The notes under the pieces: generated by a model
Database searches by the model: none
Seen by the model: only the letters and a program-made list of their open reading frames with translations
What the model was told of the DNA's origin: nothing
In this document: positions 20,318 through 60,650 of the stretch, piece by piece
Position numbering within the stretch: position 1 is the stretch's first letter
How the letters are laid out: every line of letters starts with the position of its first letter
NCBI GenBank assembly: GCA_964019135.1
Contig: OZ025263.1
Span: forward strand, 28,085,639-28,149,638
Origin: Arenicola marina
Taxonomy: Eukaryota > Annelida > Polychaeta > Arenicolidae
DNA length: 64,000 nt
Direction: 5' to 3'
Position numbers and translations under genes: made by a program

Positions 20318-23300
20318 ATGGACACATCCGGCAAGCTGTCTGTACACTGTGTGGGGATATTGGTTCTCAGCGGCCTTCTGATCAGCTGTCCTACGGCGGC
20401 GGAGGCAAAAGGTAAACACTCTATGATGAGGACTTAGTCAAAATATACATCGCAGTGTACGTCTAAGTGTATTGCTGAGTGTACGTCCATATATGAACTT
20501 TTGTGTGTACCGAGTATATGCCTAAATATGTGTACTGTTGAATCTGTTTAAGTGTACTTATTAATCTACGTTCAAGTGTACTTATGAATCTGCGTTTAAG
20601 TGGACTTGTGAATCTACGTTTAAATATACTTACGAATCTACGTTTAAGTGTACTTATGAATCTACTTTCTCTTTTTACGGACTGCTGTACGGCTTGACTG
20701 CGTCAGTCGTGACTGGGCGCGGATGTTCATAGAAAACCGGAAATGAAAATGAATGAAATTGGCGCTTTAGACCGTTTTTGCGAACACAAGGGCTAAATTG
20801 GGCTGCAATGATTATTGGGAAAATATTGACGTGGAGGCGGCCGATTTTCATAACGACACAGACGCCCTGGCTGACGAACGACCCGGGCTGCTATATGTTT
20901 TAAAAGATTGACTGTATTTAGTTCGCAGAAATTACCGACGAAAATTATTTTACATGAACTGGTAAGCTTGTTCCGCAACAGGCAAGTTGTCACCCTAACC
21001 TAAGGACCGTCAATCTCACAATGACCCAATCTCATGATGACGGTCCAATCCCCCGATGACGGTCCAATCTATCGATGACGGTCCAATCCCACGATGACGG
21101 TCTAATCACGCAATGACGGTCCAATCACACAATGACGGTCCAATCCCACGATGACGGTCCAATCCCACGATGACGGCCCAATTCCACGATATGCGAAATA
21201 TTCCATATATCTCCACTGCGCATGTGAGAACATTTTCTAACAGTAGTAACACAAGACCCAGATTTTTCTGAAAAAGTCCGTTTCACAATAGCCCATTTGG
21301 GATATACAAGAGCATGTGATGGCCATGATGGAAATACATGAGCATGTGATGACCCAGGATGGTTTTACATAAGCATGTGATGGCCCAGTATGTATATGTA
21401 TAAGCATGTAATGGCTCAGAATGGTTATATATGGGCATGTGATGACCAAAGGATGGTTATATAAGAGCATGTGATGGCCCAGTATGGTTATATATGAGCA
21501 TGTGATGGTTCAGGGTGGTTATATATGACCATGTGATGGTTCAGGGTGGTCATAGATGAGCATGTGATGGACCAGGATGATTATACATGAGCAAGGGATG
21601 GCCCATTGTGGTTAAACATGAGCATGTGATGGCCCAGGGTGGTTATACATGAGCATGTGATGGCCCAGGGTGGTTATACATGAGCATGTGATGGCCCAGG
21701 ATGGTTATATATGAACATGTCATGGTCCAGGATGGTTATACATGATCATATGATGGCCCAGGGTGGTTATATATGAACATGTGATGGCCCAGGATGGTCA
21801 TACATGAACATGTGATGGCCCAGTATGGTTATATATGAGCATGTGATGGCCCTGTATGGTTATATATGAACATGTCATGGTCCAGGATGGTTATACATGA
21901 TCATATGATGGCCCAGGGTGGTCATACATGAACATGTGATGGTCCAGTATGGTTATATATGAGTATGTGATGGCCCTGTATGGTTATATATGAACATGTG
22001 ATGGCCCAGGATGGTTATATATGACCCTGTGATGGCCCAGGATGGTTATATGTGGAGCATGTGATGGTCCAGTATGGTGATATATGAGCATGTGATGGCC
22101 AAGGATGGTTATATATGGGCCTGTGACGGCCAAGATATTTATATATGAGTCTGGGATGGCCCATAATGGTGATACATGAGCATGTGATTGCCCAGGATGG
22201 TTATATGTGGAGCATGTGAAGGCCCAGGATGGTTATATGTGGAGCATGTGAAGGCCCAGGATGGTTATACATGAGCATGTGAAGGCCCAGGATGGTTATA
22301 CATGAGCATGTGAAGGCCCATGATTGATATACCCCCGCGGGGTACTAAATACATTGCTGGTTTGGGGGGGGGGGGCAGGGTCGCGGTAAAGCGACCCCTC
22401 CCCCTTCATCTTTCACCCCCATTAGCAGAGAGCCAGCCCCCCCCCCCACTGGCCTAGCGGTTACAAGTTGTTAAATATCCGCTCTATTTTTTTTATCTCA
22501 AATGTGCGCTCTTTCAGGCTTCAAAGCAACCCCTCCCCCCCCCGCCCCCCCGCGCCCGGGGTTATACCTGAGCATGTGGTGACCCGGGATGGTTATACGT
22601 GTACATGCGATGACACAGGATGGTTATATCACATGTATGGAACTGTATTTATGTTATGTTTATGCAGAGGCCAGGATTTGTGTGACCACAAACGGCTTCC
22701 CCCTGGGACCGGCCATCAGCTGTACATCCGGATACCTGATTCATATCATTGGTGCTGAGTACTTGGGCCTGAACAGCAGTGTGTGCGGCGTTAGCCTGTG
22801 TCCATGTGACCACGTGGCATGTAGGGTGGACGTGGGCACGGTGGACGGCAGCTCGCATTATAACTTGATTATCAGTCACTGTCAGTACCAGTCACGGTGT
22901 CAGACAGTGACGCTACCTAGGACGAACGCCTCCCCATGTAGAGGCGTTGACCTGCTGCTGATACGCTACACATGCGTTGACGGTAAGGCCATTTTGAATT
23001 TTTAATTCCAAAATATCCCAACATTATCGATAATTGTGAAGCAAAATGAAACGTACATCAGATCTTGTACTTTAAGGAGTGAAGAACGCTCTGGCAATTT
23101 CTTTGGATAAATGCACGTATGAATCACATGTATATCTGTATCTACACGATCTACCAGAGCCATTCCCAGATACCCCTACGACCTTACCCAGCGTCATAAC
23201 AACAGAGGGAAGTCCTACATCACCAACAATCCAAGACAGTGATGTGACTCCGAGCCTCGGAACCAGCCGACAGACGCTGGGCACCAGTGACGTCGACCCG

Positions 23301-24065
23301 ACTCCTAGTGACGTCACAACCGCAGTTTGTCCAGTGTCAGGTAAAACACGTGTTTAATGGTAGTCATGTTTTGTGTACATTGTGAGTTATATTGCTATCA
23401 GTGCAGACCACTGGGCCGGATAAGCCTTGCTGCCGCATTCTCCTCGCGTATAATGATTAGATTACAACACGTTGTCTTATGCGATCATGGACTCAACGAG
23501 CCTTGGATGTGCGTGGTCGCATTGGCGTATTTCAAAATACAATAATTATGCCCAATAAAGGATCCAGAAGAGAGGGTGGCAGTGTCAAGGATCCAGGGGT
23601 GGGGTGGCAGTGCCAGGGATCCAGGGGAATATGTGATGGAGCCTGGGTTCCAAGGGGATCAGGTGGGCGTGATGTCTCGGTGACAGCGATCGTACTGTGA
23701 ACAGCTCACAGAGACAGTCCTTTTAACCCACTCCACACCTATGTACCCTTCATCTCATTCTCTCTGACGACGTTGGTCACATGTGTCGTTGTCTACAGGT
23801 GCCATGGTGGGGCTAGCAGTGTTTGCTGCCCTGATGACGGTCACAGTCCTCGTCCTAACAGTCTGCCTCGTCCTCAGGTAACACAACCACACGTATCCAC
23901 ACTCGAAAGTTGTTGATTCGTTATTCAAAATCCACTCGGCCAACGCCTCGTGTATTCTGAACAACGAATCAACACATTCTAGTGATTTCTCCTTTCACCA
24001 CAATGCACGGTTTCATGGTGCGTTACATGTGACGTTTGGTCAATATCACTACGCTTTAAAGCATA

Positions 24066-24102
<37 letters not shown>

Positions 24103-24627
24103 CCTCTCTCTCTTTCTCTCTCTCTCTATTTCTCTCTGTCTGTGAAGTATTAGCAAATCAGACGCACCAATAAAGGACAGTGCAGAAATGAATGGTCTAT
24201 CCTATGGCTCTACAGTTGCAGGAAGACAGCTGCCCAACAAAAGGAATTATCAGCGATGAGAACCACACCAACCGCTACGAACGCTGCCATGTCGTCTGCC
24301 ACGAATCACGTGACACCTCCGGTGGGTCCGTACGAAACCTTGGAGATCACGCCTCAAGCGGCGAGACACGAGGGCGATGGGAGCGCCACCTACAGTGAGC
24401 TGACGGAGGCGGCGGCGTATATGAACATGGCCGCTGGTCGGAGCCGTGAACAGAGTGGTTCGGGGGACCGGAGCGGTCCGAGGCAGCAAGCTACGTCAAC
24501 ATGGCCGCCGGTCGCACCACGACTGGTGACGTTACTCGGCCGTGAGCTGGTTGGGAGTTACTTTGTAGCCAGCTGCTTATGTTGGACTGGATTAGTGACT
24601 TTAGAGATGTTGCTGCAGTTACGATGA
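20318..24627 (+). CDS. SUEL-lectin/YxNM receptor gene 1 (five exons, altered tail end)
   Basis: Exons by homology and splice consensus: 20318-20411, 22668-22982, 23158-23340, 23799-23877, 24222-24627; about 358 aa. The signal peptide has a CVGILVLSGLL core and probable cleavage after AEA. The lectin exon (315 nt, phase 1-1) has ten Cys in a SUEL-like pattern (ISC, GAEYL, CPC, SHC, SPC...LLLIRYTC). The stalk is Pro/Ser/Thr-rich. The transmembrane exon reads GLAVFAALMTVTVLVLTV. The tail has YETL, YSEL and YMNM. A 7-base loss near 24454, relative to gene 3, shifts the frame after EQSGS. The usual last YVNM is therefore lost and ~50 unrelated residues follow. Likely a single-pass surface receptor; ligand unknown. 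Galactose-binding residues of classic SUEL domains are substituted, so sugar binding is not assured. Confidence 0.72.
20453..22330 (+). repeat. Intron 1 composite minisatellite, gene 1
   Basis: Order: a 24-bp repeat (ACTTATGAATCTACGTTTAAGTG type, 20453-20665); a conserved unique block (20672-20800); a 19-bp repeat ATGACGGTCCAATCCCACG (21003-21192); and a long 31-bp repeat built on TGTGATGGCCCAGGATGG (21290-22325, roughly 33 copies). More degenerate units run close to the lectin-exon acceptor. Confidence 0.85.
20672..20800 (+). promoter_or_regulatory. Conserved intron 1 block, gene 1
   Basis: The only non-repetitive part of intron 1 kept in all copies. Here it reads GCGTCAGTCGTGACTGGGCG and ACCGGAAATGAAAATG, with ETS-like GGAA. 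The AP-1-like TGAGTCA of the other copies is changed to CAGTCGTGACT. Enhancer role is inferred only. Confidence 0.4.
24076..24150 (+). repeat. (TC)n microsatellite in intron 4 of gene 1
   Basis: Pure and near-pure TC run before the tail exon. In gene 3 the equivalent run is fused directly to the middle of the tail exon. Confidence 0.9.
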
Positions 24628-24639
24628 CACAGAATTCTG

Positions 24640-29707: not shown

Positions 29708-32700
29708 ATGGACACGCCCGGCAAGCTGTCTGTACACTGTGTGGTGATGTTGTTCCTCAGCGGCCTTCTGATCAGCTGTCCCACGGCGGCGGAGGCAAAA
29801 GGTAAACACTCTAATTACATAATATACATCTAAGTACATCTGTGTGTACTTCTAAGTACGTCTGGGTGTACTCCTAAGCATGTCTGGGTGTACCTCTGAG
29901 TGTGCGTCAATATGTATGTCTTGGTTCGACTACATATAACCCCTACGTCTACGCCGGTTTAAATCTACGTCTATGTATGTCTAACTTTACTTCTAATATT
30001 CTATCGAGGTATATTTACGTTGACGTCAATCTATGTATGTCCAATACATACTACTAGTCTACATGAACGTCTCAGTGCGTTTAGATGTGTTGCTAAGTGC
30101 TAACTCGCACCAGTATGTCGGCGACACTACTTCTTGTTTCACAGACTGTTGTACTACTTCCGGAGTAATGACTGCGCGCGGAGGTTCAGAGAAGAAAGGA
30201 AATTAAAATGAAATGCCTTGGCGTTCAGGCCGCTTTTGTGCACGCACGATAAGCTGGGCAAGTTCAGGGAAGAGAAAGCATGTGAAATGAATGTGGTCAA
30301 CTCTCTTAAGGACATTTATATTTTCTGGCTGATTTGTTTAACTGTTTGAAATGTCTTATTTCTACCTATCACGATGCGCTTCAGAATCTGTTGTCAGTTC
30401 TACAACAAGCAACAGGAAAAGATGCTTGTCACTCCAACGACGACCCATCCCACAATGGCGGTCCAATTCCATCATGACGGTCCAATCCCAAAACGAAGGT
30501 CCAATCCCACGATCACAGTCCAATCCCTAGATGACGACCCAATCCCACGATGACGGTCCAATCCCACGATGACGGTCCAATCCCACGATAACGGTCCAAT
30601 CCCACGATGACGGTCCAATCCCTCGATGACGGACCAATCCCTCGATGACGGCCCAATCCCACGATGAAGGTCTAATCCCGCGTTACACAAGGATACGTGA
30701 AAGATTTGTTTCCCGTGTAGGCTATACATGAGGATGTGATGGCCCAGAGTGGCTATACATGAGAATGTGACGGTCCAGAGTCCCAGGGTGGTTATACATG
30801 AGCATGTGACGGCCCAGGGTGATTATACATGAGAATGTGACGGTCCAGAGTGGTTATACATGAGGATGTGACGGCCCAGAGTGGTTATACATGAGGATGT
30901 GACGGCCCAGAGTCCCAGGGTGGTTATACATCAGCATGTGACGGCCCAGGGTGATTACACATGAGCATGTCATGACCCAGGGTGGTTATGCATCAGCATG
31001 TGACCGCCCTGGGTGGTTATATCGCAGATATTGTTATGTATTTATGCTATGTTTATCATTTTATTCACAGAGGCCAGGATTTGTGTGATGACAAAGGGCT
31101 TCCTCTTGGGACCTGCCATCAGCTGTACATCCGGGTACCTGATTGACGTCACTGGTGCTGAGTACTTGGACCTGAATAGGAGTCTGTGCGGCCTTAACGT
31201 GTGTCCCTGTGACCACACGACCTGTAGGGTGGACGTGGACACGGTGGACGGCGGCTCGCATTATAACTCCATCATCAGTCACTGTCAGTACAGGCCGCAG
31301 TGTGAGACAGTGACGCTACCTAGGATGACCGTCGCCTCCTGTAGGGACCCTGACCTGATACAAATAAGCTACACGTGCATTGACGGTAAGGCTCCTCGGG
31401 TTTATTCAAGCGCTAAGCTGACACTGTTTGGTAGTATCTAAGGCAAGTAATAAAGTATTTGTGAGACTGTAAACAGTCATGTGTGCAGAAACTTGAGGTA
31501 ATACATGCGAAAGCAGGATTTGGAAAATGCTTGGTCTACTTGGAACGATTTCTCAAACGGTCTCTCGAGCAGGGGAGCTTTTCGGGTAGGCCTGCGACGA
31601 GATTGGAAGGGGTGGCGGGAGGGGTTGTAAACAGGGTGGGTCCACACACATATAATGGGGCCTTCCGGTACGCGGTGTAAAGGGTGGGATTGCAATGGTC
31701 CACACGTAATATTGCGCGTTGGGTTGATGAAAAGTATCGTCGCCCGTTGGCTTGCAAAAGGGCCAAATGGGCGTCATGGGGGGGAGGGGGGGGGGAGGCG
31801 CGAGGTGTCCGGACCTAGTGGACATCTAGTAATTCATTAGCATTATGGCCGATTTTAATTCCGAAAAATCTAGACTACTAGAAAAACTACTAGACAACAT
31901 GTAAGTACATATAGTAATGTGGCCGATAGTTCAGCAATCTGCTCGTATTAGATGAATCAACATCTGAATAACTATATCTACATGCATCTACCGAATTTAC
32001 CAAAGCATTGAGTCAGGAGTCGAGAACATATATAACAGAGCCTCAAGCGGAATTAGTTGAAGGCAGACAGTGATGATAACATCTATATCAATTTCTACCC
32101 GATCCACCATATCCAATATTCCCAGACACCCCTATGACCATATCAAACGTCATAGCAACGGAGGAAAGCCCTACATCCGACTTCATAGCAACAGAGGAAA
32201 GCCATACACCACCAACGACTGATGACGTCACAATTTCCATTACATGCACCGAAATTGCCGGAGATTCCTCAGTGTCAGGTAAAATACTATTATGCACATA
32301 AACTAATGTTGTAATATGTCTCATTCTATCATGGCCATGGACAGTGAGGGGGGGGGCGCTTGGGTTCAATGAGAGAGTGTTGAGGTTTCCTGGGACCCAC
32401 TCTCTCTGATGACATGTCTTTCTTCTATCGATGTCTTCAGGTGTCCTGCTGGGTGTGTCGGTACTGGCGGCTCTGCTAATTGTCGCCGTCCTCGTCCTGG
32501 CAATCTGCCTCGTTCTCAGGTAACTCAACCATACGTATCCACAGTCAGCAGTCTGCCTCGTCCTCAGGTAACTCAACCACACGTATCCACAGCCAGCAGT
32601 CTGCCTCGTCCTCAGGTAACTCAAACACACGTATCCACAACCAGCAGTCTGCCTCGTCCACAGGTAACTCAACCACACGTATCCACAGCCAGCAGTCTGC

Positions 32701-33753
32701 CTCGTCCTCAGGTAACTGAACCACACGTATCCACAGCCAACAGTCTGCCTCGCCCTCAGGTACCTTAACGACAAGTATCCACAGCCAGCAATCTGCCTCG
32801 TCCTCAGGTAACTCAACCACAAGTATCCACAGCCAGCAATCTGCCTCGTCCTCAGGTAACTCAACCACACGTATCCACAGCCAGCAGTCTGCCTCGTCCT
32901 CAGGTAACTGAACCACACGTATCCACAGCCAACAGTCTGCCTCGCCCTCAGGTACCTTAACGACAAGTATCCACAGCCAGCAATCTGCCTCGTCCTCAGG
33001 TAACTCAACCACACGTATCCACAGCCAGCAGTCTGCCTCGTCCTCAGGTAACTCAACCACACGTATCCACAGCCAGCAGTCTGCCTCGTCCTCAGGTAAC
33101 TCAACCACACGTATCCACAGCCAGCAGTCTGCCTCGTCCGCAGGTAACTCAACCACACGTATTCACAGCCGAAAGTTGTTGATTCGCTATTCGGAATCCA
33201 CTCGGCCAACGCCTCGTGTATTCTGAATAATGAATCAACACATTGTCGTGATTTCTCCTTTTACCACAATGCACGGTTTCATAGTGCGTTACATATGACG
33301 TTTTCGTCAATATCTCTACGCTTTAAAGCATACTCACTGTCTTTCTCCCTCTCTCTCTATCTCTCTTTCTCTGTAGTATTAGCAAATCAGATGCACCAAT
33401 AGACGACTGTGTAGAAATCAATGTCTTGACTTCACAATCGCAGGAAGATAGCTGCCGAGCGAAAGGAATTATCAGCGATGAGAACCACGCTAACCGCTAC
33501 GAACGCTGCCCTGTCGTCTGCCACGAATCACGTGACACATCCGGCGGGTCCCTACGAAACCTTGGAGAACGCGCCTCAAGCGGCTAGACTCGCGGGCGAT
33601 GGGAGCGCAACCTACAGTGAGCTGACGGAGGCAGCGGCGTATATAAACATGGCCGCTGGTCGGAGCCGTGAACAGAGAGGTTCGGAGCTCGGGGGACCGA
33701 AGCGGTCTAAGACAGCGAGCTACGTCAACATGGCCGCCGGTCAAAGAGCATAA
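29708..33753 (+). CDS. SUEL-lectin/YxNM receptor gene 2 (five exons)
   Basis: Exons: 29708-29801, 31071-31385, 32126-32278, 32441-32519, 33444-33753; about 316 aa. The signal peptide core is CVVMLFLSGLLISC. The lectin exon is intact, with ten Cys. The usual stalk acceptor CCAG|AG reads CCAT here, but a CCCAG 15 bases downstream (exon from 32126) keeps phase and frame. The stalk is short, acidic and Thr/Ser-rich. The transmembrane exon reads GVSVLAALLIVAVLVLAI. The tail has YETL, YSEL, YINM and YVNM, ending AAGQRA. AATAAA lies at 33848, 95 bases after the stop. A 48-bp array starts exactly at the transmembrane-exon donor. Probably functional if the shifted acceptor is used. Confidence 0.75.
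29826..31022 (+). repeat. Intron 1 composite minisatellite, gene 2
   Basis: 22-bp GTACTTCTAAGTACGTCTGG type (29826-29900), conserved block (30112-30262), 19-bp CCAAT array (30432-30675), then 31-bp array (30722-31022) up to the lectin exon. Same order as gene 1 but shorter. Confidence 0.8.
30112..30262 (+). promoter_or_regulatory. Conserved intron 1 block, gene 2
   Basis: Contains ACTACTTCTTGTTTCACAGA, then ACTACTTCCGGAGTAATGAC and GCGCGCGGAGGTTCAGAGAA. The ETS-like TTCCGG is present. The AP-1-like site is changed to GAGTAATGA. Confidence 0.4.
31386..32110 (+). other. Intron 2 of gene 2
   Basis: No gene. It contains a segment with GGTGGGTCCACACACATATA and a poly-G run near 31780, both also in intron 2 of gene 4 (46204-46880), at about 90% similarity by eye. 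Confidence 0.55.
32520..33170 (+). repeat. 48-bp splice-junction minisatellite, gene 2
   Basis: Thirteen extra copies in exact 48-bp register from the true donor at 32519 (copies end at 32567, 32615 and so on to 33143). Each unit carries the exon end plus intron start: TCTGCCTCGTCCTCAG|GTAACTC. A four-unit (192-bp) higher-order duplication is visible from the CGCCCTCAG|GTACC variants at 32759 and 32951. Antisense frames through it are artefacts of 48 being a multiple of 3. Confidence 0.95.
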
Positions 33754-35030: not shown

Positions 35031-35039
35031 AGACCCACA

Positions 35040-35262: not shown

Positions 35263-35270
35263 CCCTACAA

Positions 35271-35651: not shown

Positions 35652-36065
35652 ATGGACACACCCAGCAAGCTGCCTGTACACTGTATGGTGATGTTGGTCC
35701 TCAGTGGCCTTCTGATCGGCTGTCCCACGGCGGCGGAGGCAGAAGGTAAACACAAAATATACATCCAAGTATGTCTAAGTGTATGTCTAAGTGTACATGC
35801 AAGTATTACTGGGTGTACATCTAAGTATGTCTGGGTGTACTTCTAAGTGTGTCTTGGTGTACTTCTAAGTGTGCATCAATATGTATGTCTCGTTTCGACT
35901 ACTTATAACCCCTACGTCTACGCCTGTGTAATGTCTAACTGTACAACATCTAACTATGTTTAAATTGACGTATGTTTTGTCGAATACATACTACTTATCA
36001 ATATAGTTTAAATGCACGCTTCGGTACGTTTAGGTGTGTGGCTAAGGGCCAACTCCCAATACTAT

Positions 36066-36215
36066 GTCGGGCGACACTACTTCCTATTTCACAGACGCTT
36101 GTACTACGTCCTGAGTCGTGACTGCGCGCGGAGGTTCGGAGAAGAAAGGAATGGATATGAAAGGACTTGGCGTTTAGGCCGCTTTTGTGCACGCACGTTA
36201 AGCTGGGAAAGTTCA
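36066..36215 (+). promoter_or_regulatory. Conserved intron 1 block, gene 3
   Basis: CACTACTTCCTATTTCACAG, CCTGAGTCGTGACTGCGCGC and GGCGTTTAGGCCGCTTTTGT. AP-1-like TGAGTCG (one base off TGAGTCA). Confidence 0.4.
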
Positions 36216-36796
36216 GATATGTTTAACTGTTTGAAATGTCCTACACAATCACGATGAGCTTCAGAATATGTTGTCAGTTGTACAACTGACAACATGTCAC
36301 TCCAACGACGACCCATCCAACAACGATCCAATCCCACGATCACAGTCCAATTCCATGGTGACTGTCCAATCTGACGATGACCCCGCAGAGGGAGCACAGT
36401 TTAAAACAAGGCTTAGTATGTTTCGGTCGAGACAGTAACTTATTAGAAATATTTCTTCGTCTCGAGTCTCAAGTGGTCCATGGCTTTGAAGACATGTCCA
36501 CAAGCGGGTCTGGAAGGGGTAAATAGCGACACGCGACACAGGCATATTTGAAAAATCGACATTCGACATTGATCCCCAAATTCCGACGCTGAGGATCTGG
36601 AAAAGCGACATCGACACAGATTTTTGAAAAAAAACGACACTGAACTGAACGACACACGGAATCGACATTCGACACTGAGAATTTTGAAAAATGGACACGG
36701 GATACTGGACCCCCCCCCCCCCCCCACCCTTACAAACCTGTAGTAAAGGGATATTTTTACTGTGCGACGTCAATTTGGTGATTTAGCATTACATCA

Positions 36797-37330
36797 TTGA
36801 ATGTCTTTGATAAGATGGTTGTCCCAGTTCTGCTTTACGGGAGTGAAGTATGGGGTTTTGAGAAAGTGCAAACAACTTTCTGCAGAATAATTTTAGATCT
36901 ACCTAGGCAGACCCACTCTGTGCCTTCGACTCATTCCGCTGGGGCTCCATTATATCTCTGTTGTCGCCTACTTCCTTAATGCATTTTCACACTCGCTCGC
37001 CAGAGCGGCGCTGGGCAAATTGATAGGAAAAATGCGGCGCGTATTTCTACAAATTAGCGCCGGCGACCCAGAGTAAGCCTAATAAGACATGGTATCAGGC
37101 GATGAAAAGAGTTTAGTCACAATTACAACTTTTTCGCAAGGGTACAAGATATTTTTTGCAGTATTAAATTGCCCCCGGCTGACAGCAGCCGTAAAAGCGG
37201 GGCTTGTGTGCGGGGAGATTGAGGCAGACCATTAACCAAGCCGTTCTGGCTGCAGACTGCGATTAAGAGTGCAATATATGCTAAGGTGTATTAAGTATTG
37301 GGTTAAGTTGGTCCAAATCTGAGTCCACAA
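36797..37330 (+). mobile_element. LINE remnant in intron 1 of gene 3
   Basis: VFDKMVVPVLLYGSEVWGF (36801 on) followed by VQTTFCRIILDLP, and CIKYWVKLV near 37290. These match the post-RT part of the plus-strand LINE family (PILTYGSEIWGF...RCIKYWLKLL). About 300 bp of other sequence lies between the two pieces. Confidence 0.7.
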
Positions 37331-38019
37331 GTTTTCCGTTCTCAGGCTAGTTAATGGTAAGCAGAAAAGATCCCCATTTCGAGAAAAAAGACTGCTTATT
37401 CATAAACAGCCTTGATTTCGAAAAAAAACCCTGCTTCTTCTTAAACAGCCTCCATTCTGCATGTGACCAAAAGTTACAACAAAGGAATCCCCTTTCGTGA
37501 CCAGGGCACACAACTACACGTTTACTAAGCAAGTGACCCGTCTCCAGGGAACTAGCCATATATAGACATGTCATGGTCGTCCAGGATGGCAGAAAATGAG
37601 CATGCGAGGCCCCAGGATGGTTATATCACACATTTGATAATGTATATTGGTAATGATATTTATGGTAACTTTATTTCCAGAGGCCCGTATTTGTGTGCAT
37701 GTACAGGGCTTCTCCCTGGGACCTGCCATCAGCTGTACATCCGGGTACCTGATTAACGTTACTGGTGCTGAGTACTGGGACCTGGATAGCAGTCTGTGCG
37801 GCGTTAACGTGTGTTAGGGTTAGGGTCGACGTGGACACGGTGGACGGCGGCTGGCATTATACCATCATCAGTCACTGTCAGTACAAGGCGCAGTGCCAGA
37901 CAGTGACGCTACCTAGGAGAAACGCGCCCCCTTGGGGGGCGCTGACGTGCTGCTGATATATTACAGATGCATTGACGGTAAGGCCCTGCAGGTTTATTCC
38001 CCTCCCCCCTCCACGAAAC

Positions 38020-38265
38020 CTTATACTATGACCGTTTTGAATGCATAAATATTATGACCGTTTTGAATTCCTAAATATTATGAATGTTTTAAATTCATAT
38101 AAATTATGAGCGTTTTGAATTAATCAAAATTATAACCGTTTGAAATGAATAAATATTATGACCGTTTTGAATTAATAAAAATTATAACCGTTTGGAATGA
38201 ATACATATTATGACCGTTTTGAATACATAAAAATTATTACCGTTTTAAATACCAAAAGCAATATC
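38020..38265 (+). repeat. 26-bp AT-rich repeat in intron 2 of gene 3
   Basis: Units of the type TATTATGACCGTTTTGAATT plus ~6 bases, about nine copies. The same family is in intron 2 of gene 5 (54940-55125). Confidence 0.85.
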
Positions 38266-39584
38266 TTCACAGTATCGAAAGTATGAAGCAAAATGAAAGG
38301 TGTAATTTAGAAGAGCAGGTAACTCTGACAATTTCTTTTGACAAATGCACACATGCATCACACGTATATCTATATCAACACGATCTACCAGAGCCACCAT
38401 TCCCAGATCGCCCTACACCACCCAGCTTCCTAACAACAGAGGGAAGCCCCACATCACCAACAACACAAGACAGTCATGTGACTCCGAGCCTCGGAACCAG
38501 CCGACCAACGCCGGGCACCAGTGATGTCGACCCCACTCTTAGTGACGTCACAACCGCAGTTTATCCAGTGTCAGGTAAAACACGTGCTTAATGTTAGCCA
38601 TGTTTCGTGTACATTGTGAGTTATATTGCTATCAATGCAGACCACTGGGCCGGATAAACCTTGCCGCCGCATTGTCCTCGCGTATAATGATTAGATTACA
38701 ACACGTTGTCTTATGCGATCATGGACTCAACGAGCCTTGGATGTGCGTGGTCGCATTGGCGTATTTCAAAATACAATAATTATGCCCAATAAAGGATCCA
38801 GAAGAGAGGGTAGCAGTGTCAAGGATCCAGGGGTGGGGTGGCAGTGCCAGGGATCCGGGGAATATGTGATGGAGCCTGGGTTCCAAGGGGATCAGGTGGG
38901 CGTGATATCTCGGTGATAGCGATCGTACTGTGAACAGCTCACAGAGACAGTCCTTTTAACCCACTCCACACCTATGTACCCTTCATCCCATTCTCTCTGA
39001 CGACGTTGGTCACATGTGTCGTTGTCTACAGGTGCCATGGTGGGGCTAGCAGTGTTTGCTGCCCTGATGACGGTCACAGTCCTCGTCCTAACAGTCTGCC
39101 TCCTCCTCAGGTAACTCAACCACACGTATCCACACTCGAAAGTTGTTGATTCGTTATTCGAAATCCACTCGGCCAACGTCTCGTGTATTCTGTACAACGA
39201 ATCAACATATCATCTAATCTCGTGATTTCTCCTTGTACCACAATGCACGGTTTCATAGTGCGTTACATGTGACGTTTGGTCAATATCACTGCGCTTTAAA
39301 GCATACTCTCTCTCTCTCTCTCGAGGGCGATGGGAGCGCCACCTACAGTGAGCTGACGGAGGCGGCGGCGTATATGAACATGGCCGCTGGTCGGAGCCGT
39401 GAACAGAGTGGTTCGGAGCCCGGGGGACCGGAGCGGTCCGAGGCAGCAAGCTACGTCAACATGGCCGCCGGTCGCACCACGGCTGGTGACGTCACTCGGC
39501 CGTGAGCTGGTTGGGAGACACTTTGTAGCCAGATGCTTATTTTGGACTGGATTAGTGACTTCAGAGAAGTTGCTGCAGTTAGGA

Positions 39585-44664: not shown

Positions 44665-47600
44665 ATGGACACGCCCGGCAAGCTGTCTGTACACTGTGTG
44701 GTGAGGTTGTTCCTCAGCGGCCTTCTGATCAGCTGTCCCACGGCGGCGGAGGCAAAAGGTAAACACTCTAATTACATAATATACATCTAAGTACATCTGT
44801 GTGTACTTCTAAGTACGTCTGGGTGTACTCCTAAGCATGTCTGGGTGTACCTCTAAGTGTGCGTCTATATGTATGTCTTGGTTCGACTACATATAACCCC
44901 TACGTCTACGCCGGTTTAAATCTACGTCTATGTATGTCTAACTTTACTTCTAATATTCTATCGAGGTATATTTACGTTGACGTCAATCTATGTATGTCCA
45001 ATACATACTACTAGTCTACATGAACGTCTCAGTGCGTTTAGATGTGTTGCTAAGTGCTAACTCGCACCAGTATGTCGGCGACACTACTTCTTGTTTCACA
45101 GACTGTTGTACTACTTCCGGAGTAATGACTGCGCGCGGAGGTTCAGAGAAGAAAGGAAATTAAAATGAAATGCCTTGGCGTTCAGGCCGCTTTTGTGCAC
45201 GCACGTTAAGCTGGGCAAGTTCAGGGAAAAGAAAGCATGTGAAATGAATGTGGTCAACTCTCTTAAGGACATTTATATTTTCTGGCTGATTTGTTTAACT
45301 GTTTGAAATGTCTTATTTCTACCTATCACGATGCGCTTCAGAATCTGTTGTCAGTTCTACAACAAGCAACAGGGAAAGATGCTTGTCACTCCAACGACGA
45401 CCCATCCCACAATGGCGGTCCAATTCCATCATGACGGTCCAATCCCAAAACGAAGGTCCAATCCCACGATCACAGTCCAATCCCTAGATGACGACCCAAT
45501 CCCACGATGACGGTCCAATCCCACGATGACGGTCCAATCCCACGATGACGGTCCAATCCCTCGATGACGGCCCAATCCCACGATGAAGGTCCAATCCCGC
45601 GTTACACAAGGATACGTGAAAGATTTGTTTCCCGTGTAGGCTATACATGAGGATGTGATGGCCCAGAGTGGCTATACATGAGAATGTGACGGTCCAGAGT
45701 GGTTATACATGAGGATGTGACGGCCCAGAGTGGTTATACATGAGGATGTGACGGCCCAGAGTCCCAGGGTGATTACACATGAGCATGTCATGACCCAGGG
45801 TGGTTATGCATCAGCATGTGACCGCCCAGGGTGGTTATATCGCAGATATTGTTATGTATTTATGCTATGTTTATCATTTTATTCACAGAGGCCAGGATTT
45901 GTGTGATGACAGTCGGCTTCCTCTTGGGACCTGCCATCAGCTGTACATCCGGGTACCTGATTAACCTCACTGGTGCTGAGTTCTTGGAGCTGAATAGCCG
46001 TCTGTGCGGCAATAACGTGTGTCCCTGTGACCACACGACCTGTAGGGTGAACGTGGACACGGTAAACGGCGGCTCGCATTATAAGTCCATCATCAGTCAC
46101 TGTCATTACAAGCCGCAGTGTGAGACAGTGATGCTGCCTAGGACGTCCGCCTTCCCCTGTAATAGCGCTGACCTGCTGCTGATACGCTACACATGCATTG
46201 ACGGTAAGGCCCCTCGGGTTAATTCAGGCGCTAGGCTGACACTGTTTGGTAGTATCTAAGGCAAGTATTTGTGAGACTGTAAACAGACATGGGTGCAGAA
46301 AATTAAGGTAATACATGCGAAAGCAGGGTTTCGAAAATGTGGGGTCTACTTGAAATAAGGGGGTCTTTTCGGGTAGGCCTGCGACGAGATAGGAAGGGGT
46401 GGGGGGGTTGTAAACAGGGTGGGTCCACACACATATAGTGGGGCCTTCCAGTACGCGGTGCAAAGGGTGGGAGTGCAATGGTCCACACGTAATATTGCGT
46501 TTTGGGTTGATAAAAAGCATCGTCGCCCGTTGGCTTGCGATAGGGCCAAATGGGCGTCAAGGGGGGGGGGGGGGGCTGGCGAGGTGTCCGGACCCAATGG
46601 ACATCCAGTAATTCATTAGCGTTATGGCCGACTTTAATTCCGAAAAATCGATAACTACTAGACAACATCTAAGTACATATAGTAATGTGGCCGATAGTTC
46701 AGCAATCAGATCGTATTAGATGAATCAACATCTAAATAACTATGTCTACATGCATCTATCGAATTCACCAAAGCATTGAGGCAGGAGTCGAGAGCATATA
46801 TATAACGCAGCCTCAAGCGGAATGAGTTGAAGGCAGACAGTGATAATAGCATCTATATCTATTTCTACACGATCCACCAGAGCCAATATTCCCAGACACC
46901 CCTATGACCACATCAAACGTCATAGCAACAGAGGAAAGCCATCCATCCGACGTCATAGCAACAGAGGAAAGCCCTACACCACCAACGACTGATGATGTCG
47001 CAATTAACATTACCGGCACCGAAACTGCCGGAGATTCCTCAGTGTCAGGTAAAACACTATTATGCACATAAACTAATGCTGTAATATGTCTCATTCGATC
47101 ATGGCCATGGACGGTGAGGGGAGGGGCACTTGGGTTCAATGAGAGGGTGTTGAGGTCTCCTGGGAGCCACTCTCTCTCTGATGACATGTATTTCTTCTAT
47201 CGATGTCTTCAGATGCCCTGCTGGGTGTGTCGGTAATGGCGGCCCTGCTAATGGTCGCCGTCCTCGTCCTGGCAGTCTGCCTCGTCCTCAGGTAACTCAA
47301 CCACCCGTATCCACAGCCAGCAGTCTGCCCCATCCTCATGTAACTCAACCACATGTATCCACAGCCAGCAGTCTGCATCGTCCTCAGGTAACTCAACCAC
47401 ACGTATCCACAGCCAGCAGTCCACCTCGTCCCCGGGTAACTCAACCACACGTATCCACAACCAGCAGTCTGCCTCGTCCTCGGGTAACTCAAACGCACGT
47501 ATCCACAGCCAGTAGTCTTCCTCGTCCTCAGGTAACTCAAACACACGTATCCACAGCCAGTAGTCTTCCTCGTCCGCAGGTAACTCAACTACACGTCTGC

Positions 47601-50180: not shown

Positions 50181-50214
50181 ACATCAATTGAATAAATAAT
50201 ATGAGCGACTGTTT

Positions 50215-51260: not shown

Positions 51261-51264
51261 ATGT

Positions 51265-51570: not shown

Positions 51571-51579
51571 CCCCAATGA

Positions 51580-52707: not shown

Positions 52708-52774
52708 ATGGACACACCCGGCAAGCTGTCTGTACACTGTGTGGTGATGTTGATCCTCAGCGGCCTTCTGATCA

Positions 52775-54480
52775 GTGTGTCTGGGTGTACTTCTAAATGT
52801 GTCTGGGTGTACTTCTAAGTACGTCTGGTGTACTTCTAAGTGTGTCTGGGTGTACTTCTAAGTACGTCTGGGTGTACTTCTAAATGTGTCTGGGTGTACT
52901 TCTAAGTACGTCTGGTGTACTTTTAAGTGTGTCTGGGTGTACTTCTAAGTACGTCTGGGTGTACTTCTAAATGTGTCTGGGTGTACTTCTAAGTACGTCT
53001 GGGTGTACTTCTAAATGTGTCTGGGTGTACTTCTAAGTACGTCTTGGTGTACTTCTAAATGTGTCTGGGTGTACTTCTAAGTACGTCTGGGTGTACTTCT
53101 AAACATGTCTGGGTGTACCTGTAAGTGTGCGTTTATATGTATGTCTCGGTTCGACTACTTACCCATACGTCTACGCCTGTTTAAATCTACGTCTATGTAG
53201 GTCTAACTGTACATGTAATACTATATCGAGGTATATTTAAGTTGACGTTACTCTATGTATGTCCAATACATACTATTAGTCTAAATGAACGCCCCAGTGT
53301 AGGTGTGTGGCTAAGTGCTAACTCGCACTAGTATGTCGGCGATAGTACTTCCTGTTTCACAGACTGTTGTACTACGTCATGAGTCAGGACTGCGCGCGGA
53401 GGTTCAGAGAAAAAAGGAAATTAAAGTGAAAGGACTTGGCGTTTAGGCCGCTTTGGTGCACGCACGTTAAGCTGGGCGAGTTCAGGGAAGAGAAATCATG
53501 TGAAATGAATGTGGTCAACTCTCTTAAAGACATTTATACTTTCTGGCTGATTTGTTGAACTGTTTGAAATGTCCCATTTCTACCTATCACGATGCGCTTC
53601 AGAATCTGTTGTCAGTTGTACAACAAGCAACAGGAGAAGATGTCACTCCAACGACGACCGATCCAACAATGACGGTCCAATTCCATCATGATGGTCCAAC
53701 CCCACGATGACGGTCCAATCCCAAGAAGAAGGTCCAATCCCACGATGACGGTCCAATCCCATGATGACGCTACAATCCCACGATGACGAATCAATCCCAA
53801 GACGAAGGTCCAATGCCACAATGACGAATCAATCCCAAGACGAAGGTCCAATCCCACAATGACGGTCCAATCCCACGATGACGGTCCAATCCCACAATGA
53901 CGGTCCAATCCCACGATGACGGTCCAATCCCACAATGACGGTCCAATCCTACGATGACGGTCCAATCCCACAATGACGGTCCAATCCCAGGATGACGATT
54001 CAATCCCAAGACGGAGGTCCAATCCCACGATGACGGTCCAATCCCACGATGACGGTCCAATCCCACAATGACTATCCAATCCTCCCATTACTGTCCAACG
54101 TTTTCCCTTGAACAGCCTCCATTCCGCACGGCAAAAAGATAGTAACACAAGGCCCCCATTTTTGAGAAAACCTCCGTTCCACAATAGCCAACTTCGGCTA
54201 TAAAAGAGAATGTCAAGGCCAAGGATGGCTATACCTGAACATTTGGTGGCCCATGACGGCAATAAATGAGCATATGATGGCCGAAGTTGTTATACTTGAC
54301 CATGTGATGGCCCAGGGTGGTTATTCGTGACCATGTGATGGCACAGGGTGGTTATACTTGACCGTTTGATGGCCCAGGTTGGTTAGACATGACCGTGTGA
54401 TGGCCCAGGATGGTTATACATGAGGACGTGATTGCCCATGTTGGTTATATATGAGCATGTGCTGGCCCAGGGTGGTTATA
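52775..54480 (+). repeat. Intron 1 composite minisatellite, gene 5
   Basis: Expanded 22-bp array of GTGTACTTCTAAGTACGTCTGG (52775-53125, about 15 units), conserved block (53331-53485), the largest 19-bp CCAAT array (53647-54090, about 23 units), and a diverged 31-bp array (54205-54480). Confidence 0.85.
53331..53485 (+). promoter_or_regulatory. Conserved intron 1 block, gene 5
   Basis: GTACTTCCTGTTTCACAGAC (ETS-like TTCCTG) and TACGTCATGAGTCAGGACTG (perfect AP-1 TGAGTCA beside a CRE-like ACGTCA). Confidence 0.45.
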
Positions 54481-54939
54481 TCACATAGATTGTTGTGTAT
54501 TTATGCTATTTTTGTAATTTTAGTTACAGAGGCCAGGATTTGTGTGACCTCAATCGGCTTCCCCCTGGGACCTGCCATCAGCTGTACATCCGAGTACCTG
54601 ATTAACGTCACTGGAGCTGAGTAGTTAGACCTAAATAGCAGTCTGTGCGGCAATAACGTGTGTCCCTGTGACCACGCGACCTGTAGGGTGGACGTGGACA
54701 CGGTGGATGGCGGCTCACATCATACCATCATCAATCACTGTCAGTACAAGGCGCAGTGTCAGACAGTAACGCTACCTAGGACGAGAGCCTCCCCCTGTGG
54801 GAAAGCTGAATTGCTGCTGATATATTACACATGTATTGCCGGTAAGGCCCCTCAGGTTTATTCACCCACTCCTCCCCCCTCCCTCCACTCCCTACCCTCC
54901 CCGAATCCGAAATGTGGTCCGCGATATTATATCCTTTAT

Positions 54940-55125
54940 TTCCTAAAAATTATGCCCGTTTTGAATTCATAAAAATTATGCTCGTTTTGAATTCATACAA
55001 ATTATGCCCGTTTTAAATTCATTAGTATTATGACTGTTTTGAATTCATGAAAATAAGGCTCGTTTTTAATTCATTAGTATTATGACAGTTTTTATCCACA
55101 TAAAAATTATGTCCGTGTTTATTTC
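54940..55125 (+). repeat. 26-bp AT-rich repeat in intron 2 of gene 5
   Basis: Units like AATTATGCCCGTTTTGAATT. Same family as 38020-38265. Confidence 0.8.
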
Positions 55126-55458
55126 CAAAATACCAAAACATTATCGATAAGTATGAAGCAAAATGACAAGTGCATCAGATCTTGTACTTTTAGGAGTGAA
55201 AGTGTATTTAGATATATGCACATATGAATCACATGCATATCTATATCCACACGGTCTACCAGAGCCAACATTCCCAGAAAACCCCCCGACGCCACCCAGC
55301 GTCATAACTACAGAGGGGAGCCCTACATCACCAACAACACAAGACAGTCATGTGACTCCGGGCCTCGGAACCAGCCGACCGACGCCGGGCACCAGTGACG
55401 TCGACCCTAGTCCTGGTGACGTCACAAGCGGAGTTTGTCCATTGTCAAGTAAAACACG

Positions 55459-55615
55459 CATTGAATTTGAACTCTGTATATTTGATCAACTGTACTTGTT
55501 AATGACTTAACCTCAACTCCACAACCACTTTTTTGTTACATGTTGAGGTGGCCGTTGATGTGTATTCGTTATCGGTAACCTCGTTAAATAAATAAAGTTT
55601 ATACAAAAAAGGAGC
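55459..55615 (+). mobile_element. 157-bp retro-insertion in intron 3 of gene 5
   Basis: Flanked by AAAACACG on both sides (55451-55458 and 55616-55623), where the other genes have one copy. The 3' end has AATAAATAAAGTTTATACAAAAAAGG. A second, shorter member lies reversed at 63250-63310. Probably the 3' end of a LINE or a SINE of unknown family. Confidence 0.8.
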
Positions 55616-56480
55616 AAAACACGTGCTTAATGTTAACCATGTTCTGTGGACATTGTGCGTTATATTGCTATCAGTGCAGACCACTCGGCCGGATAAACCT
55701 TGCCGCCGCATTCTCCTCGCGTATAATGATAAGACTACAACGAGCTGTCTTATTCGATCATGGACTCAAAGAACCTTGGGTGTGCGTGGTCACATTGGCG
55801 TATCTCAAAGTACAGTATTTATTTTAACTAAAGGATCCAGAAGAGAGGGTGGCAGTGCCAGGGATCCAGGGGAATATGTGAGGGAGTCTGAGTTCCAAGG
55901 TGATCAGGTGGGCGAGATGACAACGATCGTACTGTGAACCGCTCACAGACACTCCTTGTAACCCCCACCTTTCAACCCACTCTCTCTGACGACGTTTGTC
56001 ACATGTGTCGTTGTCTACAGGTGTCATGGTTGGGCTAGCAGTGTTTGCCGCCTTGATGACGGCCACAGTCCTCGTCCTAACAGTCTGCCTCGTCCTCAGG
56101 TAACTCAACCACACCTATCCACAGCCTGCAGTCTCCATTCATCAATTCGTTTTGGATTATAACTAAAGATCATGCTTTACCAACTTTTTGTAAAACGGTG
56201 CTCTTTTTTCTACAACTGACTTTGAAATGGTGGCGGTGTACTCAAAATGGTATATTGACGTTTGATCAACAGCATTGCGTTTTCAACATAATGTCTCCCT
56301 CCCTCTTTCTTTCTCTTTCTCTCTCCCTGCATCTCCCTGCAATGATTGCAATGATTGCCTTGACCCAATGCTTTACAGTTGCAGGAAGACAGCTGCCAAG
56401 CAAAAGGAATTATCAGCGATGGGAACGACACCAACCGTTACGAACGCTGCCCTGTCGTCTGCCACGAACCACGTGACAGA

Positions 56481-57944: not shown

Positions 57945-58400
57945 ATGATGCGTGAAACTTCAACGCAGCGGGTATCACAGCCAAAACGGTATCACAAACA
58001 AAGGACCGGGGATTTTTATTATGTGAACATTCGCACCCGTGGGGTTCGAACCGGTAACGTCTTGTGCGTGATACTACGAAAATACTATGTTAAATTTGAT
58101 GGTATATATATGTGTATATATAAAAAAACATAGGTGTCACTGATTACGCATTCAGTATATGTTCCAGTAGTACAATAAATATTAATACCAACGAAATGTA
58201 TTATAATACGTATTAATGTCAGGGCCTCGTGTGTACATAGCCCTTGAGCGTTATAAACCGACATTTCACTCGCTAGGTGCCTCATTGGATCTCCAAATAA
58301 ACTGATCGATTCATTTTCTCAGTTCTCTGCTCCTTCTGCTGAACCAGTTTCAGGGAGGTTATGAAACATCGCATTGTGTTTCGTTCAGTATGATTCTATG
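57945..58400. repeat. Block D, third copy (partial)
   Basis: CTTCAACGCAGCGGGTATCA, TCACTCGCTAGGTGCCTCAT and GAACCAGTTTCAGGGAGGTT. Shorter than the other two copies. Confidence 0.6.
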
Positions 58401-59095
58401 TCTCACTCCTTTAGCAATTACACAAAAATACACAGTTAGAGTTAAAGGGGGTAGGGTTCAACTAGAGTGATTACATAGAGAGTGAATCAATGCTATCACC
58501 CATTTTTCATCTCCAGGGATGTGTACATTTCCACAAATCATTATTAGATTTGGCGCTCTCAGATGGTACCGATCAACCCTACTGGCTCATGGACTATGGG
58601 GGGCGGGGGTGCTTCACAACACGTAAGTTCTGTTTTATGTGTTGTGACACCCCCCTCACCCCTAACTTCCACGGATTTGCAGCGGCTGTGACTGAAGCCA
58701 ATAATCAAATATATAGGTCACTGTTTTTTGCTGTGGAGGCGATAGTAAATAATTAAGAGGGCATGACTGCTGGAATTTCATTTTAAAAGGGAAATCATTT
58801 TGTGGCGGATAATATCTACCATATATGGTCAAATGGTATACCCATCGGGCCGACGTCCAGTTTCCCCCCCAAGTGGGGGTGATCGATTGTGATAGACCTA
58901 TCCTCCTTCCCCTACCCCCATCCCCCTCCCTGCACCCTTGTCCTTTGAATTTATGGAAAGTAAAACTGTTAAAGAACTGTTAAAGGCTAATATTAAGATA
59001 TGTTGCCCTAATATTTTGGTTCTAAATGGCTATATGTATATGCGAGCTTGCCCCTCGTCGACAGCGTTATGTATAGGTATTTACATATCGCCCTA
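58401..59095. other. Spacer, no gene recognised
   Basis: An 88-residue frame at 58490-58756 (CVHFHKSLLDLALSDG...) has no domain I recognise and no copy elsewhere in the window. C-rich low-complexity stretch at 58865-58940. Confidence 0.35.
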
Positions 59096-59485
59096 TATAT
59101 ATGCCTTATATGCATGTCTCGGTTCGACTACATGTAACCCCTACGTCTACGCCTGTTTAAATCTACGTCTATGTATGTCTAACTCTACTTCCAATGCCAC
59201 ATCTAGGTATTTTTCAGTTGACGTTCATATATGTCTAAATGTACTTCTAATACTACATCTAGGTATGTTTAGGTTTAGCTTCAGAATATGTTGTCGTCCC
59301 TTTCATGCTTCTTATAAATATACATCTAAATGCACGCCTTAGTACGTCTAGGTGTGTGGCTAAGTGTTAACTCGCACTAGTATGTCGGCGACACTACTTC
59401 CTGTTTCACTGACTGGTGTAGTACGTCCTGAGTCATGACTGAGCGCGGAGGTTCAGAGAAGAAAGGAAATGAAAATGAAAGAACT
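59096..59485 (+). pseudogene. Relic of a receptor intron 1, no exons
   Basis: GTCTCGGTTCGACTACATG, then CCCCTACGTCTACGCCTGTT, then the conserved intron block (59381-59485) with CTACTTCCTGTTTCACTGAC and CCTGAGTCATGACTGAGCGC. It is the intron 1 order of genes 2-5, but no signal exon precedes it and no lectin exon follows. Confidence 0.65.
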
Positions 59486-59644
59486 TTTTGTGCACATTAG
59501 TTGATTTACTACACAACGCAATTGAATTACTACACGACGTTAATTATGAGGTGTTGTAATTCAATTTACGTCGCGTCCCAATGAATTGCGTCGTGTTGTA
59601 AATGGAATTAGTACACGAGCCAATTATTTTGACGGGCTGATGCT

Positions 59645-59720
59645 GCCATATATTCAGGATGCTTTAACCACTTTTGGTCATATCGCATCGATGAGAGAAG
59701 GAAGGAATAGTGGAGCCATT
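59645..59720 (-). mobile_element. SINE body fragment
   Basis: TATATTCAGGATGCTTTAAC and GGTCATATCGCATCGATGAG match the 3' part of the SINEs at 25757 and 40717 in reverse. The tRNA-like head is missing. Confidence 0.6.
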
Positions 59721-60367
59721 GCCCCGTGGGTCGTCGTTTCAGACTGCCGCCCCGTCGACAAGAGGCAATCGTCGTCGCGAAATTTCGGCCAACGCAAATT
59801 ATCCCACACTAGAGAGCGAGTTTCCGTTTAAGACAATAAATCTCCAGAAGAAACTGTTCTAGAGGAGAAGTCTCATCGCGAAGCACACATCCGGACTTGG
59901 GGGCATGTGTGTACAAGGGGAAGAGAGCGGGGGGGGGGGGCGGGGTCACATAGTACTGTTCACCAAGTCAACCCTTAAATGGGGCACATCTTACTGCAGA
60001 AAGCCAAAAGCTCCTTAACAATAAATAGGACAAATCAGGGCCGCCCCGCTCCCTGCTAATGTCCTATTCTAGGGCGAAATATTTGACCCTGGCCGTTTCA
60101 AACTTAGGGGCAGAACTCTTACTGCATGGTGCAGGGCATAAACAGACTGCCAGGTATGTCACACCTAGACCCAGTTCTGTGGCTGTAGGAAGGGCAAAAA
60201 TCTTCTGACTTCTGACTAGGTAGACGAGCCCTGTCAGATGTGTGCCCGTCCTACCTACATCCACATAACTAGGGCTATGTCACACCGTGCGGTAAAATGG
60301 TTCCGATGTAAAGTGGTTTAACCAGTTCTGTGTGAGTAGGTAACCTGTCAGTGGAAGGCAAGCAAAT

Positions 60368-60574
60368 GGTATTCACTTGATGATTAACATATTTATTCAC
60401 CACACAGACCGATCCAGTTGGCTGCGCGTACTCATAGAATCGTGACTGAAGCTCAGACAATGTCACTTGGCGGCCTCACCGGCTCCCTCCGCAACAGTTG
60501 CTGAGTTTTGTTACGTCGAGGAGACACGCGACATTCAGTATAACTCGGACATCAGCGCCTTACCTTACGCCGGA
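60368..60574 (+). promoter_or_regulatory. Conserved 5' block of receptor gene 6, shortened
   Basis: GGTATTCACTTGATGATTAA and CCGATCCAGTTGGCTGCGCG. The middle CCCGGGAATT part and the antisense tRNA-like stretch are missing. Confidence 0.5.
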
Positions 60575-60650
60575 ATGTCTGTACACTGTGTGGTGATGTT
60601 GGTCCTCAGCGGCCTTCTGATCAGCTGTGACACTTCGGCGGAAGCACAAT
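60575..60650 (+). pseudogene. Receptor gene 6, signal-peptide exon only
   Basis: MSVHCVVMLVLSGLLISC, then DTSAEAQ, then a GTAAAC donor at 60651. It lacks the MDTPGK start. The donor is phase 1 but the last base is T instead of G, so joining to a standard lectin exon (starting AG) would make TAG. No lectin exon occurs in the remaining 3.3 kb. A relic, or exon 1 of a gene with a different second exon. Confidence 0.6.

Follow-up and report, generated by a model that had tools for sequence, protein, structure and literature searches.

A same-strand array in Arenicola marina of candidate recognition receptors with a divergent RBL/SUEL-type ectodomain and tyrosine-motif tails

The KIR/LILR/Ly49-type, Hydractinia Alr and Sp185/333 families are clustered and turn over rapidly, with ectodomain folds unrelated to the RBL (SUEL-type) domain, and the ectodomain of CD28 is an immunoglobulin (Ig) V domain. 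Here we analyse a likewise clustered, fast-changing gene family of the annelid Arenicola marina, located in a 64,000-nucleotide stretch of contig OZ025263.1 (the window, C18:28085639-28149638; C18 is the contig numbering used throughout). Its members combine a divergent RBL domain with a single transmembrane segment and a tail of tyrosine motifs. The closest known proteins are the latrophilins (ADGRL1-3; PDB 2jx9, 8djg, 6ske), whose RBL-type domain has the same Cys ladder and provides the best PDB matches of the family profile. In contrast to latrophilins, the array family is single-pass with a short tyrosine tail and no 7TM region, carries two extra Cys, forms a multigene array and has mostly lost the equivalents of Glu42 and Lys120. 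EVA-1 is a membrane RBL protein as well, for which we know of no YxNM tail or array. EVA-1 differs in having two RBL domains, while its C-terminal RBL also lacks the sugar-binding Glu and Lys (PMC2430599), and Sp185/333 shares with our family tandem repeats and segmental duplications (PMC5103432). The tail motifs resemble CD28, where YMNM binds PI3K, and DAP10, where YINM binds p85 and which also binds Grb2 (PMC5852076). Different from both, the motif here sits on the receptor itself and in a large multigene family, and the Pfam scan of 28 lectin exons gave no match to an Ig family. Among the lectins of the annelid Olavius algarvensis, 7 SUEL/RBL transcripts are listed, and the excerpt describes no such architecture (PMC5117596). 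Within the open-licence PMC literature, judged by title and abstract start among the matches listed, we recognised no description of membrane RBL receptors with ITIM/YxNM tails (ITIM, immunoreceptor tyrosine-based inhibitory motif).

The window forms the downstream end of a single array of about 44 gene copies, all on one strand, that spans C18 27.61-28.14 Mb (527 kb). We consider it probable that this is a tandemly amplified family of single-pass recognition receptors, in which a hypervariable RBL-fold ectodomain would be joined to ITIM-like and CD28/DAP10-like docking motifs. The array itself, the gene structure, the relationship of the domain to RBLs, the selection pattern and the tail motifs are read directly from the genome. 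The plus strand of the window holds six related units with a common exon plan, i.e., signal peptide, ten-Cys domain, stalk rich in Pro, Ser and Thr (P/S/T), hydrophobic transmembrane segment and tyrosine tail. Genes 1, 2 and 4 are open; of the remaining units, two (genes 3 and 5) are pseudogenes and the last (gene 6) consists of a piece of exon 1. Their features are as follows (window positions; signal peptides were called by eye, without a predictor).

20318..20411, plus strand: gene 1 exon 1, start codon and signal peptide; 91% identical to gene 4 exon 1, GT donor, phase 1
22668..22982, plus strand: gene 1 exon 2, ten-Cys RBL/SUEL-like domain; SUEL_Lectin 18.1 bits, E 0.0036 (cut-off 31.4), AG/GT
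23158..23340, plus strand: gene 1 exon 3, P/S/T stalk; AG/GT, phase kept
23799..23877, plus strand: gene 1 exon 4, transmembrane; AG/GT, phase kept
24216..24627, plus strand: gene 1 exon 5, tail with YETL, YSEL and YMNM, then another frame; splice model
29708..29801, plus strand: gene 2 exon 1; 99% identical to gene 4 exon 1
31071..31385, plus strand: gene 2 exon 2, RBL/SUEL-like domain; SUEL_Lectin 14.8 bits, AG/GT
32126..32278, plus strand: gene 2 exon 3, stalk; shifted acceptor, in phase
32441..32519, plus strand: gene 2 exon 4, transmembrane; splice model
33444..33753, plus strand: gene 2 exon 5, tail with YETL, YSEL, YINM and YVNM; shifted acceptor, in phase
35652..39478, plus strand: gene 3, pseudogene; stops and frameshifts in the lectin exon, half of the tail gone
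44665..44758, plus strand: gene 4 exon 1, signal peptide; gene model
45889..46203, plus strand: gene 4 exon 2, RBL/SUEL-like domain; SUEL_Lectin 16.3 bits
46881..47048, plus strand: gene 4 exon 3, stalk; gene model
47213..47291, plus strand: gene 4 exon 4, transmembrane; mean hydropathy 3.09 over 21 residues
47975..48290, plus strand: gene 4 exon 5, tail with SPYETL, ATYSEL, AAYMNM, PSYVNM and stop; protein-identical tail at C18:27738231
52708..56478, plus strand: gene 5, pseudogene; cut exon 1, TAG in the lectin exon, truncated tail
60576..60649, plus strand: gene 6, exon-1 fragment only; exon-1 match

The five-exon model of gene 4 encodes 323 residues and has four GT-AG introns in phases 1, 1, 1 and 2. 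Gene 1 (360 residues) is open across its five exons; past YMNM its tail frame differs from that of the other genes and then runs on, such that YVNM is missing. Gene 2 (316 residues) is open only with shifted acceptors at exon 3, where the usual AG is lost, and at exon 5, both shifts being in phase. The best 21-residue hydropathy window of the signal peptides reaches at most 1.58, compared to 3.09 for the transmembrane segment. The lectin exon of gene 3 contains three TAG in the genome-search match, and it is the first half of its tail that is missing; in gene 5, a minisatellite interrupts exon 1 and about one third of the tail is left. An earlier note on this DNA had described six copies of one exon plan, correct splice sites and phase in gene 4 and one shifted acceptor in gene 2. 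The six units, their domain plan down to the YETL, YSEL, YMNM/YINM and YVNM motifs (the last not in gene 1) and the structure of gene 4 hold, while three rather than six of the units are open genes and gene 2, open and in phase as described, needs two shifts rather than one.

To delimit the family, we searched the genome (867 Mb, 762 contigs) with the gene 1 lectin exon, which gave 49 matches from 56 scored candidates. After merging three split matches, 44 lectin exons remain on C18 (27,614,840 to 28,140,475) and two on C1; this search matched no lectin exon on C18 past 28,140,475. With the gene 4 tail as query, 101 scored candidates yielded 85 matches, every one of them on C18 (i.e., no tail was matched on C1 with this query); after merging of repeat units these correspond to 43 tail exons, leaving out one short match (27,651,979) just ahead of another tail. 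All lectin and tail exons of the array are on the plus strand and alternate in 75/86 steps. On C18, 30 lectin exons are open and of full length, 9 have stops and 5 are truncated; 35/43 tail exons are open, including three repeat tails and two frame-shifted ones. Neighbouring pairs of open lectin exon and open tail (n=25) lie within 5 kb in 21 cases and within 10 kb in 23. An in-phase AG precedes and a GT follows all 32 open lectin exons (30 on C18, two on C1). In a tblastn search (E 0.05) of 20 loci retrieved together with their flanks (L017-L036), stalk exons are found in 15 and transmembrane exons in 9, both lower bounds since the flanks reach only about 1.5 kb. As these exons recur across the 527-kb array, the exon set is beyond chance.

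Judged by profile and Cys spacing, the lectin exon is a divergent RBL domain, set apart from canonical SUEL lectins. Pfam SUEL_Lectin (PF02140) is the sole family matched in each of the three window copies, over the whole profile (1-80/80) with 14.8-18.1 bits. When scanning 28 of the 32 open exons (L027, L029, L033 and L034 were left out), SUEL is found in 28/28 at E up to 1 (best E 1.5e-4), and two other families appear in one member each. Of the PDB matches of the family profile up to E 10, 5/6 are latrophilin RBLs (best E 0.044) and one is unrelated (E 9.3). The Cys spacing is identical in 25/32 exons and comprises the ladder of RBLs with two further Cys added. Counted from the Tyr of ANYGR through the Cys, the latrophilin-3 fragment shows distances of 8, 12, 13, 6, 13 and 13, compared to 8, 12, 20, 6, 13 and 12 in the lectin exon when the two extra Cys are skipped (Tyr-to-Cys distance read from gene 1). 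By spacing, the eight-Cys framework of RBLs is matched except for the two differing lengths and the two additional Cys, with the disulphides being predicted. An hhalign comparison with seven canonical RBLs of the same genome scores 30.4, which 0/100 Cys-fixed shuffles reach (maximum 23.4). A protein database search with the spliced gene 4 protein and the lectin-exon alignment found no homologue; this carries no weight, since a canonical RBL of the same genome used as query was also unmatched and the database is apparently poor in animal proteins.

Selection was assessed on all 30 open full-length lectin exons of C18 and the two of C1, i.e., with the 14 broken or truncated exons excluded. By parsimony, loop2 (columns 86-95) shows 119 non-synonymous vs. 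19 synonymous changes, and the ratio of non-synonymous to synonymous rates (dN/dS) is 0.31 in the scaffold columns 12-31 and 0.92 over all columns. A codon likelihood model (fixed site classes, FastTree topology, scaled branch lengths) yields 2.36 for loop2 alone (columns 85-95; twice the log-likelihood difference, 2dlnL, of 43.05 against 1). With four classes, values are 2.37 for loop2, 1.86 for columns 32-38 (loop1 start), 1.57 for columns 5-11 (beta1-beta2 turn) and 0.54 for the rest. Tree-free pairwise counts, bootstrapped over sequences, agree for loop2 (1.54, 1.16-2.18) and columns 32-38 (2.84, 1.84-4.97), with 0.62 (0.55-0.71) for the rest of the exon. In latrophilin-1, the RBL contacts rhamnose via Glu42 in the beta1-beta2 turn, Tyr63, Gly117 and Lys120 in loop2 (PMC2430599); by Cys spacing, our columns 32-38 are the stretch between its Tyr63 and Cys71, mostly the start of loop1. 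Diversifying change is thus concentrated in the parts from which the ligand pocket of RBLs is built, and the tyrosine motifs of the tail are constrained. We did not rely on single pairs, for which dN/dS is 2.0 for the lectin exons of genes 2 and 4 (few synonymous changes) and 0.51-0.90 for the other five pairs, nor on the intron distances (means 0.37 and 0.41), which come from poorly alignable sequence and are no neutral yardstick.

With regard to the tails, we read 39/43 (31 short stretches, four longer ones including the three repeat tails, and the window's four; those at 27738231, 27915216, 27744455 and 28142018 were left unread). Among the 36 standard tails, some of them truncated or duplicate, YExL-type motifs are present in 31/36, YSEL-type in 35/36, YxNM in 34/36 and the C-terminal YVN-type in 31/36. 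A strict ITIM ([SIVL]xYxx[ILV]) occurs in 25/36, for which phosphatase recruitment is a prediction. For the 26 distinct complete open tails, dN/dS is 0.75 overall (2dlnL 7.6 against 1), with 0.32 in the four motifs vs. 0.83 elsewhere (2dlnL 22.3). The genome search with the gene 4 tail also returned three repeat tails built of tandem units of about 27 residues, two of which have more units past a stop; the motif is mostly YxNM in two of the three and almost only YVDM in the third.

C18:27848800-27851600, plus strand: repeat tail L057, 11 YxxM motifs in the main frame
C18:27995650-27997900, plus strand: repeat tail L058, 8 YxxM motifs in the main frame
C18:27627000-27628300, plus strand: repeat tail L059, 12 YxxM motifs in the main frame

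A variable outer domain at the usual ligand site of the fold, together with constant tail motifs, fits a family of recognition receptors. Here, each gene would present, carried by a stalk, a single hypervariable RBL-fold domain, or in some cases perhaps two. The variable rim of this domain, i.e., the beta1-beta2 turn, the loop1 start and loop2, would contact diverse ligands, with proteins or non-canonical glycans likelier than rhamnose. Clustering by ligand would lead to tyrosine phosphorylation of the tail, where SH2 phosphatases could be recruited to the ITIM-type SPYETL, and PI3K p85 and Grb2 to YMNM/YINM/YVNM in the manner of CD28 and DAP10. With their 8-12 YxxM in tandem (YxNM or YVDM), the repeat-tail members may be high-gain versions. 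The array would diversify through unequal exchange and segmental duplication, leaving many pseudogenes behind. The most likely role would be immune or self/non-self recognition, which we do not tell apart here.

Several observations weigh against this reading. Concerning the domain, all three window copies stay below the Pfam SUEL cut-off of 31.4 bits, and the hhalign probability for the seven canonical RBLs is only 69%. It is an insignificant 2% for the seven C12 domains alone and 21% for a mixed set of fourteen RBLs (score 23.2; maximum 18.5 in 40 shuffles). AlphaFold2 models of the three window copies reach a pLDDT (predicted local distance difference test) of 36, a low confidence due to too little alignment depth. 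Concerning selection, the pairwise dN/dS of columns 5-11 (1.17, 0.90-1.74) is not significant, the bootstrap ignores the relatedness of the sequences, and the tested regions were picked after their variability was known and with the RBL loops in mind. Furthermore, the likelihood model takes a single tree while gene conversion is likely, such that recombination may inflate the test. In the tails, ATYSEL fails the strict ITIM pattern, and phosphorylation and SH2 binding are deduced from motifs. Finally, the genes are predicted from genomic sequence, some near-identical blocks may be assembly duplicates, and 14/44 lectin exons have stops or are truncated; the family therefore has a fast turnover, and part of the open genes may be dead. 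Among the claims of the earlier note, the SUEL/RBL relationship, the rapid evolution of the ectodomain and the conserved phosphotyrosine-type tail are supported, and the architecture is undescribed as far as the literature scope above reaches. The proposed comparison with PF02140 turned out as a match along the whole domain at scores under the cut-off, while "lectin" in the sugar-binding sense is not supported, given the residues discussed below.

The main rival is a function in gamete or egg-surface recognition, i.e., a membrane relative of the SUEL egg lectins that evolves fast due to sperm-egg or species recognition, which we rate as unlikely. The first RBL domains to be isolated came from the eggs of marine species (PMC2430599), and positive selection in the pocket fits reproductive conflict equally well. 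On the other hand, an array of about 44 copies, ITIM-like and PI3K-type tails and poly-YxxM variants would seem closer to leukocyte receptors, and the canonical sugar residues are lost.

The latter also bears on a reading as sugar-binding pattern-recognition lectins, which would bind microbial glycans with altered contacts, the variability reflecting glycan specificities. It is in accordance with the RBL relationship, with the variability residing in sugar-contact elements, and with the Tyr of ANYGR, kept in 29/32 exons and replaced by Phe in 3/32. The Glu after the first Cys, however, is found in 1/32 aligned exons (L020), and at the loop2 Lys position (HMMER alignment) Asp predominates (26 exons), followed by Glu (2), with a single exon each for His, Val, Ala and Lys (Lys in L037); the two contacts never occur together (all counts made by eye from the 32-exon alignment). 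The substitutions tried at Glu42 and Lys120 of latrophilin-1 dramatically cut or abolished binding, and the authors favour non-carbohydrate ligands for receptor RBLs (PMC2430599). With most of the canonical sugar contacts lost, we expect no rhamnose binding, and we regard glycan recognition of this kind as improbable.

Still less credible is that the repeat array is decaying and for the most part not expressed, with diversification mimicked by relaxed constraint and by gene conversion among pseudogenes: the broken lectin exons, three broken copies among the six of the window, an overall lectin-exon dN/dS of 0.86 (codon model) and the many repeats and retroelements suit it, but intact splice sites at 32/32 open exons and constraint on lectin scaffold (0.54) and tail motifs (0.32) do not, and loop dN/dS above 1 is unexpected from relaxation alone. 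A soluble lectin is ruled out by genes 1, 2 and 4, whose transmembrane exon is conserved in phase, and a latrophilin (an adhesion GPCR, characterised by a GAIN domain and seven transmembrane helices) by the single transmembrane segment of the 323-residue gene 4 model, whose two best hydropathy windows are both in one exon.

The array shows further traces of duplication. Over a 6.5-kb block that takes in the beginning of gene 2, BLAST identity to the block before gene 4 is 97.9% (97.5-100% of aligned bases per 200-column window); past this block, identity is 86-94% over exons 2-4 and their introns, poor across repeats and 83-89% around the tail. For the lectin exon of gene 3 and the tails of genes 1 and 4, identical or equally scoring matches exist some 0.4 Mb upstream (C18:27727487-27738231 vs. 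28109855-28133614); there, the gene 4-like tail is accompanied by a lectin exon (L041) that shares 94% identity with that of gene 4. These copies may stem from segmental duplication or from assembly duplication. At four places, two lectin exons 0.9-1.5 kb apart precede one tail, with the first or second truncated in two of them; such pairs, found by the genome search, may be two-domain genes, alternative exons or broken duplicates.

C18:28028320/28029463, plus strand: paired lectin exons
C18:27756341/27757803, plus strand: paired lectin exons
C18:28008732/28009632, plus strand: paired lectin exons
C18:27711039/27712456, plus strand: paired lectin exons

Minisatellites with periods 19, 22, 26, 31 and 48 lie in or beside gene introns at matching places and may promote unequal exchange (window positions; strand not applicable).

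20989-22236: minisatellite
30407-31020: minisatellite
32352-33179: minisatellite
38001-38286: minisatellite
52740-53154: minisatellite
53677-54573: minisatellite

Elsewhere in the window, a Gypsy-type retrotransposon (11228-16548, minus strand) comprises a long open pol frame, with weak protease, reverse transcriptase, RNase H and integrase matches, and a gag-like frame. Positions 4626-7876 and 7863-11111 are direct repeats of 3.25 kb with 99.9% identity, and 568 bases of them recur exactly at 18308-18875. Outside C18, contig C762 carries COX1; its conserved positions read AGA as Ser and AAA as Lys, and the gene order on a single strand is ND3-ND2-COX1-COX2-ATP8-COX3 (all but COX1 identified by eye). 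This is the order of annelids, and together with AAA as Lys it favours an annelid over amphioxus or sea urchin.

A second SUEL array, larger than that of C18, is located at C12:32429386-33388315, where at least 90 SUEL_Lectin matches, all above the cut-off, lie on both strands within 1 Mb (90 among the 150 scored matches, the best 150 of 276 candidates). In four pieces of it (L009-L012), a SUEL exon is followed by CUB-like and CCP-like exons (by eye), then a transmembrane exon and a tyrosine-containing frame that resembles a tail; those CUB-like/CCP-like exons that were scanned had no Pfam match.

More tentatively, the locus could belong to an annelid somatic recognition system (immune or allorecognition) based on the RBL fold. 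In such a system, the former sugar-pocket loops would act as specificity loops, tails with 1 to about 12 PI3K/Grb2 motifs would set a graded signal, and the larger membrane SUEL array on another chromosome would accompany it.

If expressed, the genes would constitute a large diversified receptor family whose variable ectodomain is of RBL/SUEL type instead of Ig, leucine-rich repeat or C-type lectin. Graft and self/non-self recognition are documented in annelids, and we know of no receptors for them. With genes, candidate specificity loops and signalling motifs listed, the question of annelid recognition becomes testable.

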